Assembly: GCF_009763805.1 (NCBI RefSeq)
Contig: NZ_CP046804.1
Location: 682,001 to 746,000 of the forward strand
Reading direction: 5' to 3'
DNA length: 64,000 nucleotides
DNA from: Vibrio cidicii
GTDB lineage: Bacteria; Pseudomonadota; Gammaproteobacteria; Enterobacterales; Vibrionaceae
Position numbers and translations under genes: made by a program
The notes under the pieces: generated by a model
What the model saw: the letters and a program-made list of their open reading frames with translations, nothing else
Database searches by the model: none
What the model was told of the DNA's origin: nothing
In this document: piece by piece, positions 2,087 to 52,824 of the stretch
How the letters are laid out: each line of letters opens with the position of its first letter
Position numbering within the stretch: position 1 is the first letter of the stretch

Positions 2087-3040
2087 TTACTGCTTTTTCT
2101 GTTTGTAGCGGTCGAAAATGACCGCTGCGAGCAAAATGATACCGCGTACTACGTATTGAGCGAAACGGTGACATGTTCAACAGGTTCATCGCGTTTTCAA
2201 CTGTACCGAGAATTAGCACGCCTGCGACAACATAAGACACCTTGCCAATACCGCCTTTAAGTGATACGCCGCCAAGTACACAAGCAGAGATCACGACGAG
2301 TTCGAAACCGACCGACGTCATTGGTTGGCCACTTGTCATCCGTGCGGCGAGAATCACGCCCGCTAGTGCGGAGATGAATCCCGAGATGGTGAAGATTATC
2401 CTCTTGGTTTTTACTACGTTGACCCCAGCTAGGCGTGCCGCTCATATACGGTGCGGTTGAGAAGGAAGGCAAACACCCCGAAAGTGATCAGTGTTAACCA
2501 GATTGGAGTCGGGATACCCAGAATAGAAGAGTTGCCAAGGGTGAAGAAGCTCTCTTCAGTGATACCTACCGCTTTACCGTCCGAGATGATATAGCCTAGA
2601 CCACGGGCAATTTGCATCGTGGCCAGTGTCGTGATCAGCGCGTTGATTTGCAGTTTGGCAATCACGAAGCCGTTTAGAAGACCAAATAGAACCCCTGAAA
2701 GTAGGCCAGCACCAATACCGAGCACGACACTGCTGGTGGCGTTGATCGCCACTGCGGTAACCACGCCTGAACAGGCGATAATAGAAGCAACCGATAGGTC
2801 AAGGTCGCCGCAAGCTAAGCAAAACAGCATTGCACACGCTACCATGCCACTCATTGAAATGGCCAAGCCAAGGCCTTTCATGTTGATGAAAGTGGCAAAG
2901 TAAGGCACGAACAGACAGCACAGCAAGAATAAACCAGCAAATACCATCAGCATTCCAAATTTGTCCCAAATTTTTGAGAAGTTGAGTTCGCGGGATTTCG
3001 CCTCAGATGCCATCGATTTGGTAGGGCTAGATAAAGACAT
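2087..3040 (-). pseudogene. araH: L-arabinose ABC transporter permease AraH, broken twice
   Basis: Inner-membrane permease of the AraFGH importer. The start is the ATG at 3040 (MSLSSPTKSM), with GAGGA just upstream. The first about 200 residues are normal (GDLDLSVASIIACSGVV, then a conserved NALITTLATMQIARGLGYI stretch). Near 2430 the frame ends at YERHA. The family continues with about 12 residues that are missing here before LAGVNVVKTKRIIF resumes in another frame, so this looks like a small real deletion. The conserved MTSGQPMTSVGFELVVISACVLGG stretch follows. At 2162-2166 one extra base (GAAAC on the plus strand; GTTTC in the gene) shifts the frame again. Without it the protein ends SPFAQYVVRG...DRYKQKKQ, stopping at 2087. 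The importer cannot be functional as read. Confidence 0.85.
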
Positions 3041-3057
3041 AATAGTGTTCCTCAGTG

Positions 3058-3653
3058 TCAAGCTGCTGCTGACTCTTTGTTGATCATCGCCAGACGAAGC
3101 GCAGTTTGTTCGTTAAATTGATCGCGTTGCAGTTCTCCCGTCACCGCCCCGTCTTTCATGACAAGGATGTGATCAGAGATGCCCAACACTTCTGGTAAGT
3201 CGCTGGAAACCACCAAAACGGTGACGCCGTTTTCCGCCAGCTTAAAAATTAATTCGTAAATTTCAGACTTCGCGCCCACATCGATGCCTCGGGTTGGTTC
3301 ATCAAGTAGGATCACGCTCATCGCGGTGGACAACCAACGTCCAAGAATCACTTTCTGTTGGTTGCCGCCTGATAATTTTCCGATTGGTTGCTCGAGAGAC
3401 GAAGCCTTGACATTGAGTGCCTGCTTTTGTTTAGTGGCGTTCTCTTTTTCCCAAGCGAAATCAATGAGGCTGCGAAATTTAAGATGCCACGGGCGAGCAC
3501 TAATATTGGTGTTTTCTTATACCGACATAATTGGCACGATCCCGTGGGCCTTGCGATCTTCTGAACAGAGTGTAATGCCAGCGCGAATCGCATCTTGTGG
3601 GTTCTTTATGCCGATTTGGATATCGTGCAGGAAGAGATTTCCACTGGTCATGC
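3058..3653 (-). pseudogene. araG: L-arabinose ABC transporter ATPase AraG, C-terminal remnant
   Basis: Only the last about 195 residues of an ATPase of roughly 500 residues remain. The visible frame begins around RMTSGNLFLHD, continues CSEDRKAHGIVP, meets an in-frame TAA at 3517-3519, and then resumes in the same frame with the second-domain signature LSGGNQQKVILGRW and ILLDEPTRGIDVGAK to the stop at 3058-3060. The whole first ATPase domain and the first Walker A are gone. The 5' side is joined directly and in frame to araF sequence near 3654. The gene abuts araH. It cannot make a working ATPase. Confidence 0.88.
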
Positions 3654-4413
3654 GCTCTGCGCCAAAACCTTGTCCTTCAGTGGCACGCACGCCACCCAGG
3701 ACGGTGTTATCGTTCATGCCTACCACGAGCCATTGCTTAACTTTTGGGTATTGGACCAGCAGCGAGTTAGCGGCATCCAATGCCCCGGGGATGTCGTTTG
3801 ATTTGGTGGGTACACGATAGATTTGAGTGGCCGGGAACCCAGCTTGTTTGAGTGCAGAGATAGCGCCATCAACACGATGACGAGCAGTGTCAAGTTCGTC
3901 AGCGGTAATCGCCATCACGCCAGTTGTTGCAACATCCCAACGACGCTTTTGCATTTCTTTATAAAGCTCGGAACCTTGGCGTTCACCAATGGCCGTTGCG
4001 GCCATCATTACTAAAGGGACTTCCAGCATCGGTTCACCTTTGGCGTTGAGAAACTGATCATCTACTGTCACGACTTTTAGATCATAACTTTTGGCTTTTG
4101 CCATGATCGCAGGGCCTAACTTGGGATCCGGTGTGCAGATCACGAAACCTTTCGCGCCTTGAGCCGCAAGTGTGTCAATCGCATTCAGAGTTTTTTCACC
4201 ATCTGGTACCGCCATCTTTACCACTTCAAACCCAAGGTCCTTGCCTGCTTTTTCAGCAAATGACCATTCGGTTTGAAACCAAGGCTCCTCAGGTTGTTTG
4301 ACTAGATAACCTAATCAAAGCTCATCGCTTGAACCAAAGAATGCGCTGGCAGAAGCACTTAAGAGAGTTAGCCCAGATAAGGCCGCAGTTGTTAGTAAGG
4401 TTTTTAATTTCAT
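3654..4413 (-). pseudogene. araF: L-arabinose-binding protein AraF, 3'-truncated and fused to araG
   Basis: Periplasmic arabinose-binding protein. It starts at the ATG at 4413 with a signal peptide (MKLKTLLTTAALSGLTLL, then SASA), but codon 33 is an in-frame TGA (4315-4317) where the family has lysine or a similar residue, just before LGYLVKQPEEPWFQTEW. The frame then stays open through KMAVPDGEKTLNAID, FVICTPDPKLG, VTVDDQF, LVMMAATAIGERQG and VGMNDNTVLGGVRATEGQGFG. At about residue 250 it passes without a break into AraG sequence, so the last about 80 residues of AraF and about 330 residues of AraG have been lost in one deletion. The gene is dead on two counts. Confidence 0.88.
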
Positions 4414-4478
4414 TGTTATTCCATCCACTGGGTAGGGGGTGTTTCAGGCACATATTTGAAGATTTTGTTTTAAGTTGA

Positions 4479-4494
4479 AGTGATGAAAATCACA
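4479..4494 (+). promoter_or_regulatory. Putative CRP site in the ara control region
   Basis: AGTGATGAAAATCACA: AGTGA, six bases, TCACA, one mismatch from TGTGA-N6-TCACA. It lies 66 bases from the araF start and 281 from the araB start, so it is better placed for araFGH. CRP control of arabinose genes is established in enterics. Confidence 0.55.
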
Positions 4495-4513
4495 GCAGAG
4501 GATTGTGGCGTTT

Positions 4514-4530
4514 TTGTCCATGTATTTAGC
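4514..4530 (+). promoter_or_regulatory. Candidate AraC operator, araF-proximal copy
   Basis: TTGTCCATGTATTTAGC, repeated with one mismatch at 4687-4703 in the same orientation. It contains the TCCAT and TAGC elements that make up enteric AraC half-sites. Two spaced copies flanking the control region suggest a looping arrangement. Confidence 0.5.
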
Positions 4531-4686
4531 GGAGGTGAACATGATAGCGATCGCACTTATTACGTTTTAGTGCATTTGTAGAGATGTTTTTGGTGAGAGG
4601 AATCGATTGTTTGATGATTTTCTCTCGACTTATAAAGGTATGAGCACTTATTAAAACCAAAACACAGAAATGAAGCTGTGACTAAT

Positions 4687-4703
4687 TTGTCCATGTATCT
4701 AGC
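4687..4703 (+). promoter_or_regulatory. Candidate AraC operator, araB-proximal copy
   Basis: TTGTCCATGTATCTAGC, 16 of 17 identical to 4514-4530 and 173 bases from it. A second half-site-like sequence (TGGC-N7-TCCATG at 4715-4731) follows on the araB side. Assignment to AraC is inferred from position and motif. Confidence 0.5.
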
Positions 4704-4774
4704 AGGCAAGGTCATGGCTGAATCATCCATGCGGGGTATAACAAAAAAGAAATATCACCCTACCCGGAGTTGTT

Positions 4775-6258
4775 ATGAAGCATTTAGCGACACACCCTGC
4801 ACATGTTATTGGTCTGGATTTTGGGTCAGATTCAGTACGTGCACTATTTGTCAACGTAATCAACGGAGAAGAAGTGGCATCTGGTGTTGCTTACTACCCT
4901 CGTTGGATGGAAGGACGATACAGCGACCCTGAACAGTCTCAGTTTCGCCATCACCCGAAAGAATACATCGAAGCAATGACTCAAGCGATACGTGAAGCGC
5001 TTGAACAAGTTCCAGCGGACATCGCTCAGTCTGTCGTAGGTATCGGTGTTGATACAACGGGCTCTACGCCAGCCCCCGTTGATGCACAAGGTAATGTCTT
5101 AGCGTTGTTACCCGAATTTGCAGAAAACCCGAACGCGATGTTCATTTTGTGGAAAGACCACACTTCAGTATCCAAAGCGGATTTGATTAATGAGCTGGCT
5201 CACGGTGGCGAGTTCATCGACTACACCAAATTTATTGGCGGGCTCTACTCATCAGAATGGTTCTGGGCAAAAGCGGCTTGGGTGAGTGAGCAAGACGAAC
5301 AAGTGGCGAAAGCCGCTCACAGCTGGGTGGAACTGTGTGACTGGATCCCAGCGCTGCTGTCTGGCAACGAACACCCAAGCAAGCTCCGCCACGGTATCTG
5401 TGCGGCTGGTCACAAAGCGATGTGGCATGACAGCTGGGGTGGCCTGCCGGATCAAAAATTCCTCTCTGCCATTTCGCCAACTCTTGATGGTATTCGTGAG
5501 CGTATGTTTGATGAGGTTTACACTGCTGAAGATGTTGCGGGCTATCTCACTCCAGAGTGGGCGAAAAACTGGGCTTACCGTCAGGAATAGCGATTGCGGT
5601 CGGTGAGTTTGACTGCCATATGGGTGCGGTAGGCGCTGGGGCAGGCGAGCATGATTTGGTGAAAGTGATAGGTACATCAACATGTGACATTTTAATGTTT
5701 GATGCAGACCAAGTTGGCGACCGTACTATTCACGGTATTTGTGGTCAGGTCAAAGGCAGCGCGCTACCAGGTTTGATGGCTCTGGAAGCCGGTCAGTCGG
5801 CATTTGGTGATGTTTATGCTTGGTATAAACGCGTGCTGATGTGGCCAATTCAAGCATTAGCGAAAACCAATACCGACGCGGCAAAAGTGATGGAGCAGTT
5901 GGATAAAGCGATGATTCCAATGCTTGCGAGTTCTGCGCAGCAATATGGATTCAACGACAACTCACCATTAGCGATGGACTGGCACAATGGCCGCCGCACA
6001 CCTTACGCCAACCAGCGACTCAAAGGCGCAGTCACCGATTTGAACTTAGGTTCAACCGCACCAGCGATGTTCGCCGCTCTGGTTGAATCAACCGCTCACG
6101 GCGCGAAAGCGATGGCTAGCCCGATCAGCCAAGTTTATAAGCCGAATGCAGCAGCAAAAGCGCTACGTGAACAACGTTACTCTGCTTACCGTGAACTGGG
6201 CCAACACCTAGAACAAATCTCTGAAGTAAAACTGTCTCAGGAGTATAGCCATGGGTGA
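4775..6258 (+). pseudogene. araB: L-ribulokinase AraB, frameshifted and internally deleted
   Basis: Kinase that phosphorylates L-ribulose in arabinose catabolism. The N-terminal FGGY-kinase core is intact (GLDFGSDSVRALFV, GVDTTGSTPAPVD, FILWKDHTS, YSSEWFWAK, GHKAMWHDSWGGLP). At about 5562 one base is missing: the frame reads EWAKNW where the family has a pattern like EWAEKLGLP, consistent with loss of a G before GAAAAAC. After the shift the protein resumes (FDCHMGAVGAGA, IGTSTCDIL, GLEAGQSAFGD, NGRRTPYANQRLKG). Then STAHGAKAM joins directly to SPISQVYKPN, skipping about 70 residues that in E. coli AraB hold the ALGGIARKN nucleotide-binding segment. Total coding length is about 495 codons against 566 in E. 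coli. It ends eight bases inside araD. Confidence 0.88.
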
Positions 6259-7006
6259 GTTAGCAACGGGCGCAGCTAAGTCGGTACTGAGCCAAGAAGA
6301 GCGCCTGAAAAAGCTTCGTCATGATGTGTGGCAAGCGAACTTAGATCTCGAACGTCACAAGTTAGTGACATTCACTTGGGGCAACGTTTCCGCTATCGAT
6401 CGTGAGTCGGGTTTAGTGGTGATTAAGCCAAGCGGTGTTGCTTACGAAGATCTAAGCGCAGAAAACATGGTGGTGGTCGATTTGCAAGGCAATGTGGTTG
6501 AAGGGGATCTGAACCCGCCTTCAGATACCGCAACGCATTTGGTTCTGTATCGCACCTACGCCAAGATCGGTGGGGTGGTGCATACGCATTCTCCACGAGC
6601 CACGGCTTGGGCACAAGCTGGCAAGGAGATTCCTGCGTTAGGAACCACTCACGCTGATTATTTCTACGGCAGCATTCCATGTACGCGTCCGCTGTCGAAC
6701 AACGAGATCGCTCGCGATTATGAACTTAATACCGGGTTAGTTATCGTGGAAACCATTGGCGACAGGGATCCAACGTCAATTCCCGGAATATTGGTGAAAG
6801 AACATGCGCCGTTTTGCTGGGGGAAAGATGCCTATCAAGCGGTACACAACGCCGTGGTGACAGAGGTGGTGGCCGGAATGGCGCTGCAAACTCTGCAGAT
6901 CAATCCTGCAGCGCAATACATCAATCAAGCATTGCTTGATAAGCGTTACTTACGCAAACACGGAGCCAATGCTTATTACGGTCAATCTGAAAAGAATAAA
7001 GGGTAA
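6251..7006 (+). CDS. araD: L-ribulose-5-phosphate 4-epimerase
   Basis: Zinc-dependent class II aldolase-fold enzyme that turns L-ribulose 5-phosphate into D-xylulose 5-phosphate. Visible hallmarks are [23 protein letters not shown], the zinc-ligand region [26 protein letters not shown] and the C-terminal [18 protein letters not shown]. It has 251 residues, about 20 more than E. coli AraD, because of an N-terminal [18 protein letters not shown] extension. The start overlaps the araB end, so it was translationally coupled to araB. It is the only enzyme gene of this arabinose locus that reads as complete. Confidence 0.92.
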
Positions 7007-7009
7007 GTC

Positions 7010-8057: not shown

Positions 8058-8069
8058 CCGCTAAAGCGC

Positions 8070-9578: not shown

Positions 9579-9765
9579 TTACCAAAGGATCTCACTGCCA
9601 ACATAGGTATAAAAGCGTCCGCTCTGTACTGGTGTCGCCGATGCAATCAAAGCAACCAAATTCTCTACCACTCGGCTGGACTAAAGGGGTTACCCGCAGG
9701 GACATTGTTGTGAAACAGCACAGAGAGTTTGTTATCGGTCGTACCGGGATGCAGCGCCCTTTTTT
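9579..9765 (-). pseudogene. Remnant of an SDR oxidoreductase 3' end
   Basis: This stretch aligns along its whole length with the 3' end of the intact SDR gene at 27332-28039. Read on the minus strand it gives LHPGTTDNKLSVLFHNNV, a frameshift, then a piece like RVVENLVALIASATPVQSGRFYTY, and the same stop context (CTTTGGTAA at 9579-9581). The intact copy has [18 protein letters not shown] and [20 protein letters not shown]. Only about 62 of 235 residues remain, and homology stops near 9765, facing the tad locus. It is a broken duplicate. Confidence 0.85.
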
Positions 9766-10361: not shown

Positions 10362-10363
10362 CT

Positions 10364-11826: not shown

Positions 11827-13155
11827 ATGAGACAACGTTATGTGTATGGCTTATTCGCGGTTTTGCTCAGTGTGATTGCCCTGCCCGCCGCGGCGCAGCG
11901 GATCCTCAACTTAGCAGAAGGGGATGCGCAAACCTTACGTTTGGATAAAGAAATCCAGTCGGTGTTTGTTTCGGATCCGAAAGTCGCCGATTATCAGGTC
12001 ATTGACCGCAAAACCGTGGTGATTTTCGGCAAACAAGTGGGTAATACTAGCCTACTGGTCTTTGGCGAAAACAGTGAAACCCTAGCCAGTCGCCGTTTGG
12101 TTGTTAATACCAGCATGGTGCATATCCAGCAACAAATTGCTGTTAAATATCCGCACGCTGAAGTCTCGATTTACAATCTAGGCCAACAGGTGGTGCTCAG
12201 TGGTACGGTTGCAACTGAAAAAGAGCGCGATGAAATTAATCTGCTGGTGGGTGAGCTGCTCGGAAAATCCTCAACCGATACCGATGTAGAATGGAAAATT
12301 GGTGATAACAGTTACAAAATGGACTTTATGCAAAAGCGCCGTTTTGAAGGTGTGGTCAATAACATTGAAGTCGCCAGCACTAAGCAAATCAATGTCAAAT
12401 TATCCATTGCTGAAGTCTCGCAAACCTTTATGGAGAAGTTCGGCATCCAACTTGGCACCAGTGGACAAAGCAGTGGTGTGTTCGTTAATCCATTGAGACA
12501 GTTTAGTAGCAGCGATATCATCACGTTAATCAGCGCCATTGGCGATGACAACGTCGGGCAAGTGCTTGCCGAGCCAAATTTGTCGGTGATTTCGGGTGAA
12601 ACGGCCAGTTTCCTTGTCGGGGGGAATTGCCCGTTGTCACCATCGTCGATGGCGGCACCAATGTTTTATATAAAGAGTTTGGTGTACGTTTAGAGATGAT
12701 GGCCAAAGTGCAACGTGATGACAAAATCAGGCTGTCTTTAATGCCTGAAGTCAGTTCGCTCGATACCCAATATGCCAACTCAACTTATAATTTACCTGCG
12801 CTAAAAACGCGCCGCGCTCGCACCACCGTTGAACTCGGCGATGGTCAAAGCTTTGTTTTGGGCGGCTTGCTTAATAAAGAAGAAGCAGAATCGCTGCGTA
12901 AAATTCCTTTTATTGGCGATGTTCCTGTTTCTGGGCGCTCTGTTTCGTCATACCGAAACCACCCGCAATAAAACGGAACTGGTGATCATTGCGACGGTAA
13001 ATTTGGTTCAGCCGATTGAGCCATCGAGTATTCAACTGCCCACCATGCAGCGCAGCTCAACTTTGGAACGCTTCTTTGCATTGCCTAAAGAGCGTCCAGC
13101 CATCGAACAGCAGCTTAGCCAACAAATCCTAGCGACGGGAGGGTTTAAACAATGA
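11827..13155 (+). CDS. rcpA: Outer-membrane secretin RcpA/CpaC, two frame breaks
   Basis: Outer-membrane pore of the Tad system. It has a signal peptide (VLLSVIALPAAAQ), the N-terminal secretin domain (ILNLAEGDAQTLRLDKEIQSVFVSDPKVADYQV), a BON-like part and the secretin core (VLAEPNLSVISGETASFLVGG). At about 12620 one G is missing from a G-run (GTCGGGGGGAATTG): restoring it gives VGGELPVVTIVDGGTNV. At 12927-12931 one T too many (GTTTC for GTTC) breaks IGDVPVLGALFRHT. The two changes cancel, so the total length is a multiple of three (443 codons). With both repaired the protein is a full-length secretin, about 442 residues. I favour sequence errors over a true pseudogene. Confidence 0.88.
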
Positions 13156-16227: not shown

Positions 16228-17144
16228 TGTGGTTGCTGCTGCTAATGGTCGGCATCCTGTTGCTGCTGCTAGGTATACAGCAAAGGAAAAGTGCCCGATA
16301 TGATTATCTTGCTGAGTTTGCTAAAACGGTGCATGTTGACTCCATGATTGCTGAGCACCAAGCAATTGATATGAAATCACTCTCCGATCGCACATTAAAA
16401 GACCGCCTAGATCAGAGTTGGAAAAACCTGAGTAAACAGCTAGGGAAACTGGCGCTGTTAAAGGTGCTTGGTTTTATTGCCTTACTGATTTTTCTCGGCG
16501 TTGAGTTTAATCAGCGCTTTGTTCGTGGCTCTGACCTGATGGTCGTCGTCATTGTCGTAGTTGCAGGATTAACCTTTGCCTATTTTTGGCTGCAAAAGCG
16601 TGAACAGACGCAATTTGAGGACAGTTTTCCTGATGCCTTAAATATGCTCAGCAGTGCCGTCTCATCGGGTGAAAGTATTACTCACGCGATCATGTATGTC
16701 GGTAACACTCTCAATAGCGATGTCGGTAGAGAGTTCAAGATCATGGGTAAGCGTTTACAGCTTGGTGAGTCACCCGATGATGTATTTCGTAAAGCTTGCC
16801 TGCGCTTTCCTTATCCTTCTTTTCATTTTTTTGTCATTACTCTGCGCGCCAATATGCAGCGTGGCGGTCAGCTGAAAGAAGTGATTCTGCGCCTCAATCG
16901 CTTATTATTTAATGCTCGTTCGATTGAAAAAAAGAAATTTGCTTTGACCTCGGAAGCTCGAACGTCAGCCAAAATTGTTGCCGCTATTCCGTTTTTCTTC
17001 TTATTTATGCTGCAATACCTTAGCCCTGAAAATTACGAGTTTGTGATGTTTGATCCAGCCGGTCGCCCTATCCTTTACTACGTACTGATCAGCGAAGCAA
17101 TTGGTATCGCGATTGTATGGGGGTTAATGAAGAGTGTTCGCTAA
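16224..17144 (+). CDS. tadB: Tad inner-membrane platform protein TadB
   Basis: Polytopic inner-membrane protein of the GspF family. It has an N-terminal transmembrane helix ([17 protein letters not shown]), two more around residues 75-120, the cytoplasmic T2SSF domain (FEDSFPDALNMLSSAVSSGESITHAI, QRGGQLKEVILRL) and a C-terminal helix pair. At 306 residues it is complete. It overlaps tadA by four bases and tadC by about ten. With TadC it forms the platform that TadA acts on. Confidence 0.92.
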   Translation: MMWLLLLMVGILLLLLGIQQRKSARYDYLAEFAKTVHVDSMIAEHQAIDMKSLSDRTLKDRLDQSWKNLSKQLGKLALLKVLGFIALLIFLGVEFNQRFVRGSDLMVVVIVVVAGLTFAYFWLQKREQTQFEDSFPDALNMLSSAVSSGESITHAIMYVGNTLNSDVGREFKIMGKRLQLGESPDDVFRKACLRFPYPSFHFFVITLRANMQRGGQLKEVILRLNRLLFNARSIEKKKFALTSEARTSAKIVAAIPFFFLFMLQYLSPENYEFVMFDPAGRPILYYVLISEAIGIAIVWGLMKSVR

Positions 17145-18043
17145 TATTTCTCTGCCCACCATTGGGCAAGCCGGTCCGCTTTTTCCCATCGTTTCTCGTA
17201 CTGATCGGTGTATTGCTACTGCTTGCTTCGCTGCGCAAAGAGAAAAAAAAGCAATTCTGGAAAGATTATTATCTGCACCAAACCGCAGAGCAGACTACCG
17301 TAAAAGTCAGCTTACTTGAACGCCTATCGGCAACGCTCAATCGACTATTTTCCTCTGACAAGCATCTGCAGCAGCAAAAGATGCTAGCGGCGGGTTTTTA
17401 TAATGCCAATTTTGCCACCTATTTTATGCCCCTTAAATATTCGCTATTGCTGTTAGGCGCAGCGGGAATTTATTTTTTATCATTGAAAGTAGCATGGCTA
17501 GCAAACAATCTAATGCTATTTATGGCGCTATGGTTGGTGATCAGCCTGATTTTACCTGATAGCTATTTGGCGATTCGGGCAAAAAACCTGAGCCATAAAA
17601 TTTCGAATAAACTGCCGTATCTGCTGGATTTAATGGCGGTATGTGTGCAAACCGGTATGACGATTGAAGCGGCGATCAGTTATCTTGCCAAAGAGATGAA
17701 AGGATTTGATAAAGATATCAGCTATTTATTGGTGAAAACCGATGATAGAGCACGTTTAGTCGGTCTAGAGACTGCGCTCGATGAACTTTACGCTAGGGTG
17801 CCCTCGAATGAAATGCGTAGTTTCGTCATGACGTTAAAGCAAAGTCTGCAGTATGGCAGCTCAATTTACAGTGTTTTGACCACCCTATCGGCGGATATTC
17901 GAGAGGTTCAAATGCTGCAGATCGAGGAAAAAATTGGCAAATTGGCGGCAAAAATGTCTATTCCTCTGATTGTCTTTATTATGGTGCCGATTGTGATTTT
18001 AATTGCTGCCCCTGGTGTAATGAGGATGATGATCAATGCCTAA
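17134..18043 (+). CDS. tadC: Tad inner-membrane platform protein TadC, one frame break
   Basis: Second GspF-family platform protein. The likely start is the GTG at 17134 overlapping the tadB end, giving a start like MFANISLPTIGQAGPLFPIV. One extra T at 17191-17195 (GTTTC for GTTC) then shifts the frame. Removing it yields PIVLVLIGVLLLLASLRKEKKK, a proper first membrane helix, and the rest is open to 18043. An uninterrupted alternative from the ATG at 17117 exists, but its N-terminus (MGVNEECSLIFLC) looks unnatural. Family features include LPYLLDLMAVCVQTGMTIEAAI and the C-terminal helix IPLIVFIMVPIVILIAAPGV. About 302 residues when repaired. It overlaps tadD. Confidence 0.85.
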
Positions 18044-18933
18044 TAGAAAGTCGAGTAAAATACCTAGTGCTCTATGGCTGTTGTGTGCCTTATCACTTTC
18101 GGGCTGCAGTGGTTTATATCAAACATCCAACAACGAAGGAAGCCAAGCGCAAAATCGCGATAAGCCTTTGGACTTTGATCAGGAGTCTTTGCTGATCAAA
18201 ACCAATAATCAAGCGGGTTTGATTGAGTTGTATAAGGCTCAACTCCAGCAGCAAGAAAACCCACAAACACGTTTAAAATTGGCTCAGGCTTATTTCGATG
18301 GTAACGATCCGGAATCGACCTTATTTGTACTGACTCCTTTACTCAGTGGCAGCACAACTTTGCCGCGTGATGAACTTTTTTTTCTTCAAGGTCGAGCTCA
18401 ATATCAACTGGGGCAGATAGAAACAAGCGCAACGTTCACTGTCATCCGCTCTGGAAGTGAACCCGAGCAGTGCCAAAGCTTTTAATTCGATCAGCATTAT
18501 TTATGCGCAGCAAGGGGAGTGGCGAAAAGCACGTGAAGGCTTTAATCGTGCCCGAGAACTGATGTTTGATGATGTAACGGTCAAAAATAATTTGGCGCTG
18601 ATTGATATCTTGGAACAGGATTATCAAAGTGCTGCAGCGCGTTTGTTACCAATTTATCTCAATGGCCAAGCGGATGATATGGTCACCGCGAATTTAGCCT
18701 TAATCATGGCCAAAATAGGCAGTTATGAACACTTACGCTCTTTTTATGGTCAGCAATATAACGATGAGGAACTATATCTGGCCTATCTCAACCTGCGTGA
18801 CGTGCAATTAATGAATCACACGCCAGCAGAGGCAGCGGCTAATTCAAAAAAACATCTGTTGCAGCCAAATAACAATAACACAGAGGTTGTTATTCCCGCT
18901 GAGGAGCCAAAAGATGCGTCGTTTGTTTTCTAA
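18036..18933 (+). CDS. tadD: Tad lipoprotein with TPR repeats TadD, one frame break
   Basis: Outer-membrane lipoprotein with tetratricopeptide repeats, needed for Tad assembly. The lipobox is LSGC (after WLLCALS). TPR-like segments follow (TRLKLAQAYFDGNDPESTLFVLTPL, SSAKAFNSISIIYAQQGEWRKAREGFNRA). The frame breaks at 18420-18424: GAAAC instead of GAAC. Removing one A gives GQIEQAQRSLSSALEVNPSSAKAFN, a typical TPR helix, and restores one reading frame of about 298 residues. The 3' end overlaps tadE. I treat it as one gene with a probable sequence error. Confidence 0.85.
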
Positions 18934-28153: not shown

Positions 28154-29422
28154 TCACAAGCCGTTTCCGCACCATTTGGCAACGAACTCGCCCTTTGGAT
28201 CGTAAGTGTGCGCCTGTTTTTCGAGGTTGAATTGCCGCGAGCCGCGTGGGTCGGCTCCGACTCCCGCCGAATATTGCCAGTTGCCCCAGTTGGATCCGAC
28301 ATCGTAATCCACTAACTGGGTTTCAAAATAAGCGGCACCATAGCGCCAATCTAAGCCTAGTTCGTGGACTAGGCAGCTGGCGACTAACTGTCGACCACGG
28401 TTGGACATGTAACCCGTTTGATTCAGTTGCCGTATGCAGGCATTCACAATAGGAAAGGGCGTTTCTCCGTGCTTCCACTGTAAAAAGCGCTGCGCATAGA
28501 AACTGGTGAGCGGTTTTTTCTCGCCAATCCCAGAGAAGCGAAACAGTTTTGCGCCATAGCGCCGCGCGTACCAGTAAAAATACTCACGCCACAGTAACTC
28601 AAAGAAAATCCAGTAGGTGGAATCGTTCGCGCCATGTAGAGCTTCATAACGCTGCAACATGGCATAAATGGTTTTTGGCGAAACCGCGCCGAGCGCGAGC
28701 CAAGGCGAAAACTTAGTGGAATAATCCATGCCGTCTAACCCATTGCGCGTCTCTTTATAGCGACTGGGGAGCATGGAGGAGAAATAGTTTTTGCAATGCG
28801 TCAGCCCTGCTTGCTCACCACCGATAAAGGCGCTGTGATTCGGCTCGGCAACAATGCCCATCAAAGGCAACTGCCAGCCTTGCTCAATGGGTGGCAAAAC
28901 ACGCGGATAACCCATCGGCGCAGAGAGGGAGAGCGTTTCTACTTGCTTACGAAATTGGGTAAAGGTGCTCGGTAGCGCCTCAAGTGCAAACGGCAACTGC
29001 GGCTCACTCAATAAGCTGTGCAGAGCTTGCTGATGGATGTGCACAGACGGAAATTCCTGATGAATGCGCGCGATAGCTTGGCGCTCATCTGAGCCCGCCA
29101 TTGCATCCACATAAATATCCGTAATCTCGACTTGAGTCAGTAGATGGCGCAGCGCTTGATAGGGCAAAAGTGGCGTCACCCAAAGCTTTTGGCCTAGCGT
29201 ACTGAGCGAATGATCTAAGTCAGCCAAGGTTTGGTTGAGAAACCTTTTTTTGGCTTCGCCCCATTGTGTTTGCTGGGCGTAGTGCGCCAAAAATGGCGTA
29301 ATCGAGGGATAACAGTACAAACAGATCAAGCGATCCACTTGCTGCGCGGCTTGCTCAAGTAGCGGGTTATCGTTTACTCGTAAGTCGTTGGTAAACCAGT
29401 AAAGGCCGATTTTTTTACTCAA
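28154..29422 (-). CDS. cryD: Cryptochrome DASH
   Basis: Flavoprotein of the photolyase/cryptochrome superfamily; DASH members repair cyclobutane dimers in single-stranded DNA and bind FAD plus a folate antenna. It starts [17 protein letters not shown], has the FAD-binding [52 protein letters not shown] and the DASH signature [27 protein letters not shown] through [22 protein letters not shown]. At 422 residues it is slightly short at the C-terminus. It is paired with an SDR downstream. Confidence 0.93.
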
Positions 29423-33435: not shown

Positions 33436-34447
33436 TTATTGAGCTTGAGCAACCTGGCTAAGCCAAGTGTCAAGAGTGTCGAAAAATTCTCGGGCATACG
33501 CCTCGTCGCCATACCAACTGAGCTTGATGAGAAACCAAAGGTCTGGGGTCTGGGTATTGAATGTGGGATGCTTAAGTAAACTGTGTGTTGCGTTAGCAAT
33601 TCGCTTGATGGTCAGGCTGCTTTTCCCTTCAAATAGTTTGCTTAGTCGCCGATGAGTGTGGTTGATATCCACATTGAGGTCCTGCTCTCCCAGTAAGATG
33701 AGCCCGGGTTTTGTCAGATTATGGTAATCATTGCTCGCATCCGCAAAGGCGTTCAGTTTGGCAAAGTGAAAGCGTTTCTTTACTCATCAAGTCCGGCTGG
33801 TTGGCGTACTGCGTTTTATAATCGGCGTAGGTGGGATTGGCTTGCCAAAAAGCAATCTCTTGCAAATGGTGCTGATAGGCCTTGGCGATGTCACTTTCGT
33901 TGGCCCCGTTTGCTTCTAAGCGTGTTTTCGTCAAGTACCAGCTTTGCTGCATCCAATTGATGGCAAAGCCGACGCCGATGAAAAAATCCACCTCATCATT
34001 GCTTTTTGCAACGGCCGGTACCACCCATCCTGCTTGGCTAAAGCCCATCAAGCCAAGGCTTTTGGTTTGGTGACGGAAATGGTTTTTGACAAACGCGATG
34101 GCGTCGTGAACTTCTTGTTGGCGATCCTGCATTGACTGGTTAAGCCAATTGCCCGTCGAGTCGCCAACGCCCGGTTTATCCCAGCTAAAAACCGCATAGC
34201 CATTGTCAATCAGTCGCTGCCAAATTGGCTCATAATAGCCATAGGCGTCATAGCTGAGCGCTCCATCACCATGCACAAAAAGAATCACCCCTTTGCTGTC
34301 GGTTGGCTTTTCGGCCGATAAATAGTAGCCAGCGAGGATATTGTCGCCACTTTGAAAGCGAATTCTCTGCTCTTTGGCGTGTAAAGGAAAACTCACGCTC
34401 AAACAGAGCAGCAAGGTACTAAGCAGAATTTTGGTCAGGACTTTCAT
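33436..34447 (-). CDS. Secreted alpha/beta hydrolase, one frame break
   Basis: A hydrolase with signal peptide (LLSTLLLCLSVSFPLHA), oxyanion strand VILFVHGDGALSYDAYGYY, PGVGDSTGNW and nucleophile elbow GFSQAG. At 33774-33778 one extra base (GTTTC on the plus strand; GAAAC in the gene) breaks the frame. Removing it gives MSKERFHFAKLNAFADASNDYHNLTKPGLILLGEQD, then the acid and His region, ANATHSLLKHP, to the stop at 33436. The repaired length is about 336 residues, normal for this family. The start is the ATG at 34447 with GGAGAA upstream. It lies 19 bases after the RND pump gene and is probably in that operon. Confidence 0.82.
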
Positions 34448-38725: not shown

Positions 38726-39604
38726 TTGGTATGCTCCAGTGTGGCTAAGTTGCTCGCTGGCTGATTGAGCCGCTGACTGATCTCTTCTAATCGCGAGAGG
38801 GTTTGCAGCGTGATTGGCAGCATGACTGCGGTTTCGACAAATTCCAGTGAGTAGGTGACGACAGCAAATACTTGGCCCGCGGTGGGCGCGGGAAGGTGAC
38901 TCACCAGCCACAAGTTAGCGACCACCGAGCTAAAGAGCGCGATAAAAATCAGCCCATACACCAGCGCTTCAGTATCAGAGAGTTTAATTTCGCACTGTTT
39001 CAACCGCTCAAAGTGCGCCCGGATAGCGGCGAACGAACGGCCACCCAGCACGCCGACTTGCTGCTCAAGTTGATCATTGAGTGTGGCGTTGAGACGAGTA
39101 AAGGTGCGATGAAACAAAGTGTAAAGCAATAGCATGGCTAGCCCCGCGGCCAGAACGCACAGGGCGAGAGTGAAATGAAAGCTGGCGAGAATGACTAAAG
39201 TTGCCAGCAACTGCACCAGCGCGGTAATCACGGCGGGCAGATGTTGCTCTAGAAAGTCCACCAGTTTCCCGAGACATGGTCAGGCGCGCATCTTTCACGG
39301 AAATGGGCACGGCGCGCAAATTGCGCGCGACCAACTTGGCCAACCTGACTCTGATTGCTCCGTATACTCTGGTGTCGTAGACACGCCGCGCCACGCTGAT
39401 CACCACCAGCGCAAAGAGGATAAATCCGAGTGTCAGCAGCGGACGCAAGTTTTGCTCAAGCAGACCATCAATGGCAAAACCGATAAAAAGTGGCAACAAC
39501 ATCATCAAGACATTCTCTGCCAAGACGATGAGCCAAGTCAGGGCCACTCGTTTGAGACTGAGTTTGATCACCAAGCGCAGTGTGATGGGGTAACGAAATA
39601 ACAT
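38722..39604 (-). CDS. ABC-type six-transmembrane protein without ATPase, one frame break
   Basis: An ABC exporter-type membrane domain standing alone. It starts at the ATG at 39604 (MLFRYPITLRLVIKLSLKR) and has helices such as LTWLIVLAENVLMMLLPLFIGF and LLTLGFILFALVVISV, then TMSRE. One extra base at 39264-39268 (GTTTC on the plus strand; GAAAC in the gene) breaks the frame. Removing it gives LTMSRELVDFLEQHLPAVITALVQLLATLVIL and an open frame to 38722, about 293 residues. No Walker motifs exist. It overlaps the fusion-protein gene by four bases, so it is the first gene of the RND operon. Its role there is unknown. Confidence 0.82.
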
Positions 39605-39725: not shown

Positions 39726-41493
39726 TTAAGCCACTTCGGGAATCGGCTTGGCGGGCGCCTCGGGGTCGGGTTCTTTTTGGATCGCGGGCACTTGACCGTC
39801 GCCCACTGCGCTAAGGTAACAGCCACTCAGTTTCACCGCTAAATAGAGGTCGGCACGCAGCAGGATCCCGCCTTCACTGGTGCTGATACCCGTGAGCTCA
39901 CACCAGTTTCGCATGCTGCGCTTGCGTCCGGCCAGCACTAAACGGATGCCGCGCTGCTTCAATGTGGTATGCACATCCGAGAGCATCGCCATCACACTCA
40001 AATCGAGGTGGGTAAAACAGGAAACGGCGTCTACCACCACACAGCCCACATCGCCAGTGCTTTTCTCCGTGCACTCTAGCAGCCGGCGTTTAAAGTAGGG
40101 CGCGTTGAAGTAGGTCAGTGGCGAGTTGAAACGGTAGATCACCATACCCGGAATCGGGTTGGCTTTGCCCGTGCTGTCGATGGTGCGGATAGTGCCTTCT
40201 TCGTCTAGGCCGAGCTCCTGGTCACTTGGGCGCATCACAATGCGCAAAAACTGGAATAAGCCGAGTAACACCGCCAAGGTGATACCAGGGATCACACCGA
40301 CTATTAACACCGCAATAAAAGTGACGCTGGCGAGATAAAACGCGTCTTTGTCCCGCTTTCTCAATGCCCAAATGCCTTTGAGATCGAGCAGCGACAGCGA
40401 AGCGATCACTAACACGACACCTAAAGCGGCAATGGGAATATATTGCAGTGGCTGGTAGGCAAACACGGCGATGATGGCAATGACGGTGGCGGCGATGATT
40501 GACACCAGTTGCGATTTTCCTCCATTGGCATCATTAACGGCGGTGCGTGAGTCTGCGCCGCTGATAGCAAAACCTTGTGAGAACGCTGAAGCAATATTGG
40601 CAAAACCCAAGGCGCGAAACTCTTTATCCGCATCAATGTCGTAGCCATTTTTGGCCGCAAAGCTGCGCGCGGTGAGCATCATGCTGACAAAGCTGACCAT
40701 GGCTAAGTTCAGCGCTGGCACCACCAGTTTCGCGGCTCACGCCGATATCAAATTGTGGAGTTTGAAAATCAGGGAAACCACCTTGCGTTACGCCAACCAC
40801 GCTCACCCCCATGCTTTCCAAATGGAGCAACCACACCGCTGAGGTCGTGACGACAATGGCCAACATCGCCGCAGGCCAACCCGGGCGAAAACGTTTGGTC
40901 AGCAGGTACAAAAAGAGGGTGGTTGCACTCATTGCCAGCGTTGGCCAATGAAGTTCGCTCAGCAATTGTGGTGCTTCCCACAGCCGTTCCAAAAGGTAGC
41001 GCTGCTCAAACTTGAGACCGAGAACTTTAGCAAACTGGCCGACGATGATGGTCAGCGCGACGCCGTTAAGCAGGCCAAGCAATATCGGCCGAGAGAGAAA
41101 ATCCGCGAGAATGCCGAGTTTAAGGCGACTGGCCAAAACACACCAGATGCCCGTCATCGCGGTCATGGTCATCACCAATTGCCAGTGTTTGGTGGAATCG
41201 CCTGCGGCCAGTGGGGTGACGACCGCGGCAATCACGGCGCAGGTGGCCGCATCAGGGCCGACAATCAACTGTCTTGATGTGCCCATCAAGGCATAAATCA
41301 GCATAGGTAATACGCATGAATAGAGGCCAACAATGGCGGAGACGCCAGTCAACTGCGCATAGGCGATGGCAACGGGCAGTGCGACCGCGACGACAGAAAG
41401 TGCCGCGCGCAGATCGGCGGTGAACCAATCGCGCTGGTACTGTTTAAGCTGAAGTAACCCCGGGAACCACTGCTGTAATATTCTCGCTTTCAA
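39726..41493 (-). CDS. SulP-family anion transporter with STAS domain, one frame break
   Basis: Inner-membrane SLC26/SulP transporter (sulfate, bicarbonate or other anions). The likely start is the TTG at 41493 (MKARILQQWFPGLLQLKQY) with GGGAGG upstream. Transmembrane parts include LSVVAVALPVAIAYAQLTGVSAIVGLYSCVLPMLIYALMG and IVGPDAATCAVIAAVV, typical of the family. One extra base at 40727-40731 (GTTTC on the plus strand; GAAAC in the gene) breaks the frame. Removing it gives GVSRELVVPALNLAMVSFVSMMLTARSFAAKNGYDID and then the STAS domain (VVVDAVSCFTHLDLSVMAML). Repaired length about 588 residues. No carbonic anhydrase gene lies beside it. Confidence 0.87.
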
Positions 41494-47629: not shown

Positions 47630-48316
47630 ATGATCCAGTTTCTACTCTCTTCATTCGCACCCATGCTGCTTGGTGCCCAATTGGTTCTCACTCTCGTGCT
47701 GGTGAAAGGCGACATTTGCCCGGGGCAGCGTGGTCGCATTCACAAAGTGTTGCCCGCTCTGGGGCTGATGTGGATGGCGGTTTCCTCGCTGGAAATCGCG
47801 GCGTTTTTAGTGGTATTTGCCATTTTCTACTTTTATTCCAAAGTGCAGACAGGCAAAACGCGTCAAGAAGGGCCGCTTTGGGTACTGTATCTGGCCGACG
47901 GTTTAGCCCTCTCTTTTGTTGCTTTGCAAGCCGCAAAACAAGGTCACTGGGGCGGCGCTCTGGTAACGATGATTTTAACGGTATTGCTGGGCGCGATTTT
48001 TGCTCATTTGCTGTTGGTGATTGCTCGCTCACGCTTGCAGGCATTTCATCGAATTTTACCCTTTAGCGGCATTATTGCGGCAATGTTGACGGCGCTGGCT
48101 CTTCTGGGCGTCGCTTCTGGGTTTGGTGCTGAGCAGTTAGAGCAAGTTACTCCATTGATGCTCGCAAGCCTCGTGCTGATGATCGTAGGTGTAGTCATGT
48201 GGTGTTGGCACATTTTCTCAGGCAAAGCCGCGCACAAAATTCAATTAGCCACGGCGTGGTTGATGCTGTTGGCATCAGCAAGTTGCATGCATATGCTGTT
48301 TAGTCTCCCTGTCTGA
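47630..48316 (+). CDS. Uncharacterised inner-membrane protein
   Basis: A 228-residue polytopic protein with six or seven hydrophobic segments (LLSSFAPMLLGAQLVLTLVLV, IAAFLVVFAIFYFYS, ALVTMILTVLLGAIFAHLLLVIA, IIAAMLTALALLGVA, LMLASLVLMIVGVVMW). No motif or family recognised. A Cys at CPGQRG and at the C-terminus are the only unusual residues. It is monocistronic as far as I can see, between the EAL gene and the DUF4250 gene. Confidence 0.65.
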   Translation: MIQFLLSSFAPMLLGAQLVLTLVLVKGDICPGQRGRIHKVLPALGLMWMAVSSLEIAAFLVVFAIFYFYSKVQTGKTRQEGPLWVLYLADGLALSFVALQAAKQGHWGGALVTMILTVLLGAIFAHLLLVIARSRLQAFHRILPFSGIIAAMLTALALLGVASGFGAEQLEQVTPLMLASLVLMIVGVVMWCWHIFSGKAAHKIQLATAWLMLLASASCMHMLFSLPV

Positions 48317-48401
48317 TAGCGCGATTTAGACCTGCTTCACTTTTTATCTACGGATTTGTGGCTACGCTTATTACTTGAAGTACTCAAAAAGGAGCGTAGC
48401 G

Positions 48402-48602
48402 ATGGATCTGAGCAATGTAGAGCGCTTAGACAGTATTATTCTGCTGGGGATCGTCAATGAAAAGTTGCGCCTAGAATGTGACAGTTTTGACGATCTGATA
48501 AGCACGTATGAAATGGATGTTGAACAGGTGATCGTCAAGCTTGATGTGCTTGGTTATCAATACGATCCACTGACCAACCAGTTTAAATCTTACTCACGCT
48601 GA
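48402..48602 (+). CDS. DUF4250-domain small protein
   Basis: A 66-residue protein. The start at the ATG at 48402 is supported by AAAAAGGAG eight bases before it. The sequence (LDSIILLGIVNEKLRLECDSFDDLISTYEMDVEQVIVKLDVLGYQYDPLTNQF) matches the DUF4250 pattern, a short helical family of unknown function found in many Vibrionaceae. Convergent with metR, nine bases from its stop. Confidence 0.75.
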   Translation: MDLSNVERLDSIILLGIVNEKLRLECDSFDDLISTYEMDVEQVIVKLDVLGYQYDPLTNQFKSYSR

Positions 48603-48610
48603 GCGATTTT

Positions 48611-49523
48611 CTAAGCCATCTTGATACCATCAAGGTGGCTTTTGCATTGCTGGCGTGCGGTGGCAAAGAAAGCTTGCAGATAGCGCTTCTCTTTGTCGCT
48701 ATTGCGCGTTGCGGCAAACAAGCGACGCCACAAGCCCTTGCCCAGCGGGATGCTGGTAATGAGCCCTTGTCGGGAAAATTCGCTAATCGCCCAGTTTGGC
48801 AACGCAGCCACTCCCAGACCCGCCGACACCATCTGCACCAACATCAATGTGTTATCTGCTTGCTTCCATTTCGCCGGCTCTACGCCAGCGGGGGCCAGAA
48901 AGTGTTTGACCACGTCTAAGCGCTGCTTTTGCACCGGGTAAGTCAGCATGGTTTGATCCGCCAGATCGCTTGGTTTCTATGCGTGTTTTATTTGCCAATG
49001 GGTGATTGGTGGCGGTGATAAGTCGCATCTCAAAATCAAACAGAGGCTCATAGTGGATTTCACCGCGCGGTTGAATATCTGAAGTGATCACCAAATCCAA
49101 TTCGCCCGCCATCAGTGCAGGTAAAGGTTCAAAACCAAAACCCGATGAGAAATCGAGAGTCACGCTCGGCCACGTTAGTTGATACTCTTTCAAAGCAGGC
49201 ATCAGCCATTGAAAACAGGAGTGGCACTCGATCGCCATATGTAAACGGCCATTCACATCCTCTTTTAGGCTAGCAAGCTCGTTTTCGGCTCGGGCAAGTT
49301 TGGGCAAAACCTCGTCGGCGACGCGCAGTAAAATCTCCCCTTCGGAAGTAAATTTTACTGGACGTGTTTTACGCAAAAATAACTGACCACCTATCCTTGC
49401 CTCAAGATCCTTGATCTGATGGGAGAGGGCGGATTGAGTGAGGTGCAGCGCCGTTGCCGTTGCGGTGAGTGAGCCAGTATCGCGTAGCGATGTCAGGGTT
49501 TTTAAGTGTTTCAACTCGATCAT
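48611..49523 (-). CDS. metR: LysR-type regulator MetR, one frame break
   Basis: Activator of methionine synthesis that senses homocysteine. It is divergent from metE as in enterics. The helix-turn-helix (LKTLTSLRDTGSLTATATALHLTQSALSHQIKDLE) and core (IECHSCFQWLMPALKEYQL, DLVITSDIQPRGEIHYEPLFDFEMRL) match E. coli MetR. At 48973-48977 one extra base (GTTTC on the plus strand; GAAAC in the gene) breaks the frame. Without it the protein reads KTRIEPSDLADQTMLTYPV and runs to 48611, 303 residues, the family length. A sequence error is more likely than loss, since metE shows the same kind of error. Confidence 0.88.
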
Positions 49524-49784
49524 GAATCTCTCTCATCTTCCTTGCTGTGTGCATGAGTCTTTGTAACTTACCTGGATTTTTTGGAGCTGTAAACATCTAG
49601 ACGTCTATTTGTTTTGTGTCGACGTTTAGTTGGGTCATGAATTTTTTTAATAAACAAGTTGAATATTTGGCGCTTGTTCCATGGTGGGATTGACGAGATA
49701 GTTTAGCCATCTGGACATCCTGACGGGATGCAAAGCAAATTATCGAACAACGAATAGACCAAGCATAGAAAAAGGAATAAGACC

Positions 49785-52074
49785 ATGACGACCACAACGC
49801 ACATCCTCGGCTACCCGCGTATTGGTGAAAAACGAGAACTCAAGTTTGCGCAAGAAAAGTACTGGCGCGGAGAGATTGACCAAACCGAGCTGAAGCAAGT
49901 AGGCGCTCAGCTACGTCAGCAGAACTGGCAAGTGCAAAAAGAAGCAGGGCTGAGCTACGCCACCGTTGGTGATTTTGCTTGGTATGACCATGTGCTGACC
50001 ACCACACTACTGCTTGGCCATGTGCCGAAACGTCATCGTCATGGTTTTCCTGATCTCGATACCTTGTTTCGTGTTGGCCGCGGTCAATCGCAGTCCGCCT
50101 GTGGCTGTCATGGCGCAGCAGCATCGGACATGACCAAATGGTTTAATACTAACTATCACTATATCGTTCCGGAATTTAGCCGCGATGATACGTTTGAGGT
50201 GAGCTGGCCACAGCTGTTTGAAGAGGTCAATGAAGCGATTCAAGCTGGGCATAAGGTTAAACCCGTGCTGCTTGGCCCGCTAAGCTACCTCTATTTGGGT
50301 AAAGAGGTGGAACAAGGTTTCGAGCGTCTGACGCTACTTCCCCGTCTGCTTAGCGCTTATCAGGCGATTTTGGCCAAACTGGCAAAACAAGGAGTAACAT
50401 GGGTACAAATTGACGAGCCGATTCTGGCACTTGAGCTGGAAAAGCCCTGGTTGGATGCCTTCAAGTTGGCTTATCAAGTGATCCGTGGTGAGGTCAAAGT
50501 GCTGCTGACGACTTATTTCGATGCTGTGAGCGACTGTTTAGATCGAGTAGTGGCACTTGACGTGGACGGGCTACATATCGACCTTGCCGCGGCCCCTGAA
50601 CAACTGGATGAGGTGCTTGAGCTATTGCCAGCGCATTGGGTGCTGTCGGTCGGTGTGGTCAATGGTCGCAACGTGTGGCGCTCTGATCTGGCGACGCAAT
50701 ACCAACGCTTGCTGCCTGTGAAAGCGCAGCTTGGTGAACGTTTGTGGGTTGCGAGTTCCTGCTCACTGCTGCACAGTCCGGTGGATTTAGATCTTGAGCC
50801 AGCCTTAAATGAAGAAGTACGCAGTTGGTTGGCGTTTGCCAAGCAGAAAGTGTCGGAAGTGGTACTGCTTGGCCGCGCCTTGGACGGAAACGAGGACGCG
50901 ATTGCGCAATGCGCTGTGTATAGCCAACCAATTCAAGCGCGAAAGTCAGCAAGTCATGTTCATAAGCCGCAGGTACAAGCCCGTGTGAATGCGATTTCGC
51001 CCGCGTTTGCCAAGCGCAGTGCCCCTTATGCGCAGCGAGCCGCACATCAGGCCGAAGTACTAAAACTGCCGCTGTTGCCAACCACCACAATAGGATCTTT
51101 TCCGCAAACGGCCGAGATCCGGGTTCAGCGCAGTGCCTACCGCGCAGGCCAGTTGTCGCAGGTCGAGTACACACAGGCGTTGAAAGAGCACATTGCCGAT
51201 GCCGTGAAACGACAGGAGGCGTTGGATCTAGACGTGTTGGTGCATGGTGAAGCGGAGCGCAACGACATGGTGGAATATTTTGCTGAAAACTTGGCTGGCT
51301 TTCAAACCACTCAGTTTGGCTGGGTACAAAGCTACGGTTTCGCGCTGCGTGAAACCAGCCATCGTGGTCGCGGACATCGAACGAGAGCAACCCATTACGG
51401 TTGAGTGGTCCAAGTACGCGCAATCACTGACTTCAAAACATATGAAGGGTATGCTCACCGGTCCGGTGACGATTTTGTGTTGGACTTTCCCCCGTGAGGA
51501 CATCTCACGTAAAGCGATCGCCCAACAACTCGCACTGGCACTGCGTGACGAGGTCACAGACCTACAGCAAGCAGGGATCAACATCATTCAGATTGATGAG
51601 CCAGCGATTCGCGAAGGACTGCCATTGAAGAAGCGCGATCATCAAGCCTATCTTGACTGGGCGGTAGAGTCATTTCGCATTGCGGCGGGCAGTGCCAAGC
51701 CAGAAACGCAGATCCATACCCACATGTGCTACAGCGAGTTCAACGAAATCATTGAATCGGTCGCAGCACTGGATGCCGATGTCATCACCATTGAAACCTC
51801 GCGTTCAAATATGGAGCTGCTTAAAGCGTTTGAAGAGTTTAACTATCCCAATGAAATTGGCCCGGGTGTGTATGACATTCACTCACCGAACATTCCGACA
51901 GAGGAGTGGATTGTGGATTTAATCCAAAAAGCGGCGCAGAAAATTCCGCTCGAGCGTTTGTGGGTCAACCCAGATTGCGGTTTGAAAACGCGCAGCTGGC
52001 CTGAAACCGAAGCGGCACTAGCAAACCTCGTTGCGGCAGCAAAAACATTGCGCAGATCGCTGACAGAAGTATAG
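49785..52074 (+). CDS. metE: Cobalamin-independent methionine synthase MetE, one frame break
   Basis: Zinc enzyme that transfers the methyl of methyltetrahydropteroyl-triglutamate to homocysteine. N-terminal half: [46 protein letters not shown]-terminal half: [33 protein letters not shown], then the zinc ligands in [11 protein letters not shown] and NPDCGLKTR. At 51337-51341 GTTTC stands where GTTC is needed: removing one T gives [16 protein letters not shown], a conserved MetE block. Repaired length about 762 residues (E. coli 753). It is divergent from its activator metR with about 260 bases between, which hold a T-rich stretch but no MetR site I can fix. Confidence 0.92.
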
Positions 52075-52087
52075 AGCTAAAAAGAAA

Positions 52088-52110
52088 AGGGGTTGACTTA
52101 GTCAACCCCT
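52088..52110 (-). terminator. Intrinsic terminator between convergent metE and gspS
   Basis: A ten-bp stem (52088-52097 with 52101-52110; core GGGGTTGAC/GTCAACCCC) and a three-base loop. On the minus strand it is followed by TTTTCTTTTT, so it mainly ends the minus-strand gene at 52134; it may also serve metE. Confidence 0.8.
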
Positions 52111-52133
52111 GTCAGTTTCCGTTGGTGTAAAGC

Positions 52134-52526
52134 TTATTTTGCTGCGCAGGTTTGCGCAGTAACCAGTTGGTCTGCGACCAATTGACCGCGGGAGTTACGG
52201 ATCTTGATACGATAGGCTAAGCCTAACTCTAATTGGCTGCGAATTTCGTCGCTGTTGCAGTAACTTTGAATGCTATTTGCCAACACTTGCTCGGTCGGCT
52301 TAGCCCCTTGTGCGTCACTGTTGTAAATCATCATCATCTCAATCACGCTTTTGTTGGCTGAAATACGCATAACTTTGAGTGGGCCATGTTCTAGCGGTAG
52401 ACCCGCCGACAGCATGCCAGCACGATTTGAAGCCATCAGCTCCAATTGACGTTCTCGCTCATCATTTGAAGAGCAGCCTGCTAACGCAGAGAAAACGAGA
52501 GCAGCGCAGATAATTTTCTTAAACAT
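52134..52526 (-). CDS. Lipoprotein, probable type II secretion pilotin GspS-beta (AspS)
   Basis: A 130-residue outer-membrane lipoprotein (lipobox LAGC at about residues 15-18). The body (RQLELMASNRAGMLSAGLPLEHGPLKVMRISANKSVIEMMMIYN, then a CNS...TCAAK Cys pair) fits the Vibrio AspS/GspS-beta pilotin family, which carries the secretin GspD to the outer membrane. The comparison is from memory, so the name is a strong guess. The start codon directly follows the yciI stop. Confidence 0.65.
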   Translation of the reverse strand: MFKKIICAALVFSALAGCSSNDERERQLELMASNRAGMLSAGLPLEHGPLKVMRISANKSVIEMMMIYNSDAQGAKPTEQVLANSIQSYCNSDEIRSQLELGLAYRIKIRNSRGQLVADQLVTAQTCAAK

Positions 52527-52824
52527 TTAGAAGACTTTTTTGAATGGTTTGACTACGACATTAGCATAAACGCCGGCTTCGATGTACGGATCAGCATCTG
52601 CCCAAGATTGTGCTTCTTGCAGTGAAGCAAACTCAGCGATGACGGTCGAGCCAGTAAATCCTGCTTCACCTGGGTTCTCAGAGTCAATGGCTGGCATTGG
52701 ACCTGCGGTAAGTAAGCGTCCTTCATCTTGAAGCTGTTGTAAACGAGCAAGATGTTGCGGGCGAAACGCTCAAGCGCTTTTCCAATGAATTCTCGACATC
52801 CTGAGAAAAAATAACGTACCACAT
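52527..52824 (-). CDS. yciI: YciI-family protein, one frame break
   Basis: Small ferredoxin-like-fold protein related to muconolactone isomerase. It starts at the ATG at 52824 ([20 protein letters not shown]). At 52763-52767 GAAAC stands on the plus strand (GTTTC in the gene). Removing one base gives [46 protein letters not shown], ending [13 protein letters not shown] at 52527. The repaired length of 98 residues equals that of E. coli YciI, which argues for a sequence error. It stands with yciA and yciB as in enterics. Confidence 0.88.

Follow-up and report, generated by a model that had tools for sequence, protein, structure and literature searches.

Single-base insertions clustered at GAAC/GTTC sites in a Vibrio cidicii assembly point to systematic reading errors, probably caused by Dnd phosphorothioation

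Broken genes in the window and a dnd operon to its left

The window analysed here is a 64,000-nucleotide stretch of Vibrio cidicii DNA (C2:682001-746000, in a genome of two contigs and 4.75 Mb) in which a series of genes appears to be split by one extra base at the five-mer GAAAC, or its complement GTTTC, where close relatives have GAAC or GTTC. A dndBCDE operon, whose products would phosphorothioate DNA, lies 12-17 kb to the left of the window, and we examine below how the insertions and this operon may be connected. MetE of the window has its nearest named matches in Vibrio, at ~80% identity, which places the source genome in this genus. As references we used two relatives of the same genus, G106 and G162, whose trp genes are 98% and 95% identical to those of the source genome and which are ~95% and ~94% identical to it across long collinear blocks. 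The initial annotation of the window had placed ten gene breaks at the five-mer. All ten five-mers exist where it put them; eight of the breaks were confirmed, the one in tadD is compatible with the five-mer, its place not being fixed, the one in tadC found no support, and one further site of the same kind, at 28163-28167, had been missed. At the sites covered by close-relative DNA, the extra base was located at the run in six of six. The sites in the window are as follows.

2162..2166, GAAAC: frame-break site in an araH-like gene; the match to a G027 homologue changes frame at 2163/2164
12927..12931, GTTTC: frame-break site in an rcpA-like gene; two homologues change frame at 12931-12935
17191..17195, GTTTC in a tadC-like gene, break not supported: a G007 homologue aligns in its entirety with the single frame 17060-18040, and a 308-aa open reading frame (ORF) spans 17117-18043
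18420..18424, GAAAC near a frame break in a tadD-like gene: homologues of 34-39% identity, which does not fix the position, change between two frames at 18434 to 18463, ~10 bases past the five-mer
28163..28167, GTTTC: the further frame-break site; insertion relative to a close relative, frame switch in 28155-28181
33774..33778, GTTTC: frame-break site in a gene initially annotated as a hydrolase; insertion relative to G106 (G162 unaligned here), frame switch
39264..39268, GTTTC: frame-break site in a gene initially annotated as ABC-type membrane; insertion relative to G106 (G162 unaligned here)
40727..40731, GTTTC: frame-break site in a SulP-like gene; insertion relative to G106 and G162, frame switch; the intact G106 copy matches the SulP model just below cut-off
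48973..48977, GTTTC: frame-break site in metR; insertion relative to G106 and G162, frame switch; the intact G106 copy is MetR over cut-off
51337..51341, GTTTC: frame-break site in metE; insertion relative to G106 and G162; the intact G106 copy is MetE over cut-off
52763..52767, GAAAC: frame-break site in a gene initially annotated as yciI; insertion relative to G106 and G162

We also scanned for frame breaks against homologues, excluding matches below 45% identity and padding each switch interval by 12 bases. The five-mer fell inside the padded switch in 4 of 5 breaks in the window and in 20 of 20 in C2:746001-946000. One frame switch of the window, at 9659-9689, has no five-mer; its homologue is 66/53% identical and is perhaps a diverged paralogue.

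The Dnd system that the initial annotation had invoked from the motif is encoded on the same contig, where dndBCDE and dptF were both found to the left of the window (L108 denotes C2:662001-682000).

C2:664616-669728 (L108 2616-7728), minus strand: dndBCDE operon
C2:667119-668520: match of the DndC search, ~14 kb left of the window
L108 4981-6613: dndC, split between two frames that change at GTTTC (L108 6165-6169)
L108 7905-9891: dnd-associated putative methyltransferase gene adjoining dndB; TIGR04096 positions 2-330 are matched in one frame and 333-476 in another, and the five-mer stands where the frame changes
L108 14073-15282: mannose-6-phosphate isomerase gene manA; model positions 3-253 and 251-389 in two frames, with the five-mer at the switch
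C2:653794-655293: dptF, further left, of the restriction partner family DptF/G/H (only dptF was searched)

TIGR03233, 03183, 03185 and 03184 were all matched over cut-off (dndB, C, D and E in one operon; dndC through its larger piece). Protein identity to the dnd-bearing E. coli C1 is 66% for DndB, 68-70% for DndC, 52% for DndD and 74% for DndE; the two DndC pieces, compared apart, match residues 1-148 (70%) and 150-526 (68%) of the E. coli C1 protein. DndC was found over cut-off in 29 of 196 drawn genomes of the genus, and a dndC search in G106, G162 and G046 returned 0/3 matches. Beside the dnd genes, L108 10379-13285 encodes a 968-aa helicase-nuclease-like protein with ResIII, PLD-like and S24-like domains and weak matches to dnd_restrict_1 and PbeA, which may be a further restriction partner. 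A second DndB-like (PF14072) ORF of 387 aa lies just past dndE on the opposite strand (L108 1397-2560).

The insertions are specific to GAAC/GTTC

For the main alignment, 464 kb of the source genome, the window included, was compared with 400 kb each of G106 and G162, and one-base differences were counted as assembly-specific when common to the comparisons with both relatives. Blocks shorter than 1200 bases, below 90% identity (88% for G059 and G046) or overlapping were excluded before the count, as were gaps longer than one base. Both relatives together covered 262,481 bases, and G106 alone with a second stretch (C2:1000001-1400000, of whose 400 kb 103 kb was alignable) covered 409,655; no inverted match was found in this second stretch. 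The source assembly has a listed completeness of 100% and a contamination of 3.23%, the latter a figure that genes falsely split by frameshifts could inflate.

Over the 262,481 bases there were 73 assembly-specific insertions and 32 deletions. Forty-two of the 73 insertions are GAAAC/GTTTC where both relatives have GAAC/GTTC, and every other context occurs at most three times. By the same counting, the relatives' own insertions include none of this type (G106 0/23, G162 0/47), and the recurrence of the five-mer is therefore beyond chance, as had initially been claimed. Once this class is removed, the remaining one-base indels of the source assembly stand at the level of the relatives, implying that the assembly is not poor in general. 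Against G106 alone with the second stretch included, 69 of 223 insertions are of the GAAAC/GTTTC type; the second stretch by itself gave 14/58, and 0/48 in the reverse direction.

Other runs of the same length do not share this behavior. XAAAY runs other than GAAAC carry 1 assembly-specific insertion versus 42, and deletions show no excess. In an open-frame test of the source genome, GAAAC scored 59/4706 and other XAAAY 138/43172 (p=2.6e-15), while a GAAAC excess was seen in none of G106, G162, G059, G046, G010 and G112 (G010 and G112 with only 40 kb each). Equal rates in other A/T runs, which would speak against a motif-bound cause, were thus not seen in the 262-410 kb over which the tally was made, and the signal is specific to GAAC/GTTC. 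The excess is restricted to one motif within an otherwise accurate assembly and is absent from the relatives G106 and G162, neither of which has dndC, as is looked for in errors of the modification type.

Most GAAC sites are unaffected, in agreement with the initial annotation: of the GAAC/GTTC sites that G106 and G162 both conserve, 1369 in all, 32 have the insertion, 1173 are unchanged, 161 are substituted and 3 are otherwise altered. If the sampled rate holds, ~760-800 such breaks are expected genome-wide.

Flanks of the affected sites

Phosphorothioated sites of Salmonella Cerro 87 prefer M (A or C) at -1, K (G or T) at +1, C at -2 and G at +2 (PMC9521924; this and the papers below are cited from the accessible parts of their texts). 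We had noticed the A/C-before and G/T-after preference first, and the published flanks were then tested in the second stretch as a replicate, where +1 was K at 11/11 affected sites (p=0.0001) and -1 was M at 8/11 (p=0.13). When both stretches were pooled, M at -1 was found in 35/43 affected versus 791/1717 unaffected sites, K at +1 in 34/43 versus 777/1717, and G at +2 in 20/43 versus 460/1717. The combined motif M-GAAC-K, a rule unchanged by reverse complementation, as a two-strand modification would lead one to expect, accounts for 27/43 affected and 345/1717 unaffected sites (p=2e-9), and the opposite class for 1/43 and 494/1717. Affected sites are further enriched in G at both -2 and +3 and in C at +4, which are not among the Cerro 87 preferences given in the accessible part of PMC9521924. 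A bipartite type I motif was considered and rejected because the flanks show no fixed outer half.

Reading errors or mutations

The insertions might be ordinary homopolymer errors of a weak assembly, with GAAAC chosen by eye from ambiguous placements. In any single gene the insertion point is indeed ambiguous within the run, and one of the ten sites first listed (tadC) turned out to be unsupported. However, the insertions counted here were placed by base-level alignment, and the open-frame test, in which six other genomes (two with small samples) showed no excess, together with the near-absence of insertions in other XAAAY runs and the lack of a deletion excess, led us to reject general homopolymer error; we give this explanation hardly any credence. 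That the insertions are real mutations, arising for example by slippage at phosphorothioated or damaged sites in the cell, would agree with the extra bases standing in the deposited sequence. Yet coding DNA is not depleted: 49/54 affected and 1820/2055 unaffected sites lie in the relative's ORFs, and this equal coding share points to reading errors and led us to reject mutations filtered by selection. Intact relative copies were scanned for 40 of the 49 coding hits. Those identified over cut-off include monomeric isocitrate dehydrogenase, exonuclease III, RuvC, CmoA, DinG, HrpA, Uup, DNA polymerase II, RsmF, a SpoVR-family protein, MetE and MetR, among others; several of the scanned copies matched nothing at the threshold applied. 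Were the mutations real, isocitrate dehydrogenase, exonuclease III, RuvC, CmoA and MetE would all have been hit at once, dndC itself would be dead, and the genome-wide number of breaks given above would be expected. Since the joint loss of so many such genes is implausible, the extra bases almost certainly arose during reading, judging from the sequence comparison, and real mutations are very unlikely.

A modification of the same core other than phosphorothioation, for instance methylation of a base, could also disturb the reading of some GAAC sites; it might be made by the putative methyltransferase of the dnd region or by some enzyme unrelated to it. A methyltransferase typically marks nearly all its sites, whereas only 32 of the 1369 conserved sites are affected here and no fixed longer motif was seen; moreover, the core and the -1 and +1 flanks agree with phosphorothioation. 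We therefore consider such a modification unlikely, even though the TIGR04096 methyltransferase gene adjoins dndB and nanopore assemblies with methylation-linked motif errors are known (PMC10687267).

Phosphorothioation as the probable cause

Our preferred explanation is a systematic over-call of one base caused by Dnd phosphorothioation (PT) at GAAC/GTTC, the kind of reading error that the initial annotation had proposed. We consider it very likely because the insertions follow one motif, do not occur in relatives that have no dndC and fall without regard to coding function, and because a dnd operon is present and the -1/+1 flanks agree with published PT sites; the presence of PT, its role as the misread feature and the use of native long reads are presumed. 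DndBCDE would replace a backbone oxygen by sulfur on both strands at a subset of GAAC/GTTC sites, the PT lying between the G and the following A or T of each strand (PMC9069010). A reader slowed or shifted at this linkage would count the adjoining two-base A/T run as three, and the extra bases would not be part of the cell's DNA. The affected sites would be those modified in most molecules, native DNA presumably having been read by single-molecule sequencing. As the over-call would occur on both strands, the strands would agree and the consensus would keep the error.

Several observations weigh against this explanation. In the second stretch, neither G at +2 (2/11) nor C at -2 (1/11) was enriched, so the published +2 G is absent from the replicate, and the published -2 C preference was not seen in the pooled sites either (9/43 versus 375/1717). 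A context effect of the base-caller could account for part of the flank preference. In E. coli B7A, according to the accessible part of PMC6459556, 360 high-frequency sites show no flank consensus and 60% of sites are modified at less than 5%; with so low an occupancy, majority miscalls would require a higher occupancy in the source strain or a very sensitive reader. Other dnd-bearing genomes also show no comparable excess. The Vibrio G059 has 1/32 insertions of the GAAAC/GTTTC type over 140,844 bases and no homologue-detected frame break in 141 kb, E. coli C1 and LR1 have 0/7 and 0/5 such insertions (38 and 37 kb aligned), and G112 has no frame break in the 17 kb covered. Hence, dnd genes do not suffice, and differences in sequencing platform, polishing or occupancy may be the deciding factors. 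Since G059, C1 and LR1 may differ in platform and polishing, these negatives bar the claim that dnd genes suffice, not the mechanism.

In G010, another dnd-bearing Vibrio (95% complete, 5% contaminated), the open-frame test gave GAAAC 2/200 versus other XAAAY 7/1454 in a small sample of 40 kb. The single frame break in the 3 kb covered (L252 ~12972-13006) has the five-mer. No relative of G010 above ~80% was found among the matches listed, 48 of the 196 genomes not having been scored.

If PT is the cause, dndC would be functional in the cell, so that a dnd operon with a dead-looking dndC may be active, its own product having caused the false break. Hundreds of apparently broken genes here would then be whole, and studies of gene loss may be misled by assemblies of this sort. 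It is likely, if somewhat less so than the PT explanation itself, that the deposited assembly is a readable PT map, in which several hundred highly modified GAAC/GTTC sites, in the number extrapolated above, are recorded as one-base insertions, and from which the motif and the dyad-symmetric M-GAAC-K can be recovered with the deposited sequence and one relative. Archived assemblies could then serve, with no further chemistry, to study how Dnd chooses the few GAAC sites that it modifies, and the same scan could reveal backbone modifications across them and clear false pseudogenes, dndC included.

Comparison with known systems

No report of consensus insertions at PT sites was found in titles or abstract openings, the subscription literature being mostly outside this coverage. 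The DndBCDE systems of E. coli B7A and Salmonella enterica Cerro 87 resemble the present one in having dndB, C, D and E in one operon, a GAAC/GTTC core and a small subset of sites. Cerro 87 also shares the -1 M and +1 K preference (PMC9521924); it differs in its -2 C preference, the enrichments at -2 (G), +3 (G) and +4 (C) described above belong to the present sites, and the present system is known from sequence, with sulfur presumed. Nanopore detection of PT by ELIGOS (PMC9069010) likewise finds base calls altered at GAAC/GTTC; with wild-type Salmonella, it called 3.9-4.4% of motifs, near the 2-3% seen here. However, ELIGOS uses a read-level statistic against amplified DNA, whereas here a fixed one-base insertion stands in the deposited consensus. 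In Listeria nanopore genomes (PMC10687267), otherwise good assemblies similarly contain motif-specific errors that stem from a lineage-specific modification. Those errors are mismatches at GCAGC or GCTGG, in four strains linked to an mza methyltransferase system, whereas here there are insertions at GAAC/GTTC together with genes for a backbone modification. A consensus error caused by modification is thus of a known kind, and what would be new here is a backbone modification as its source and insertions as its form.

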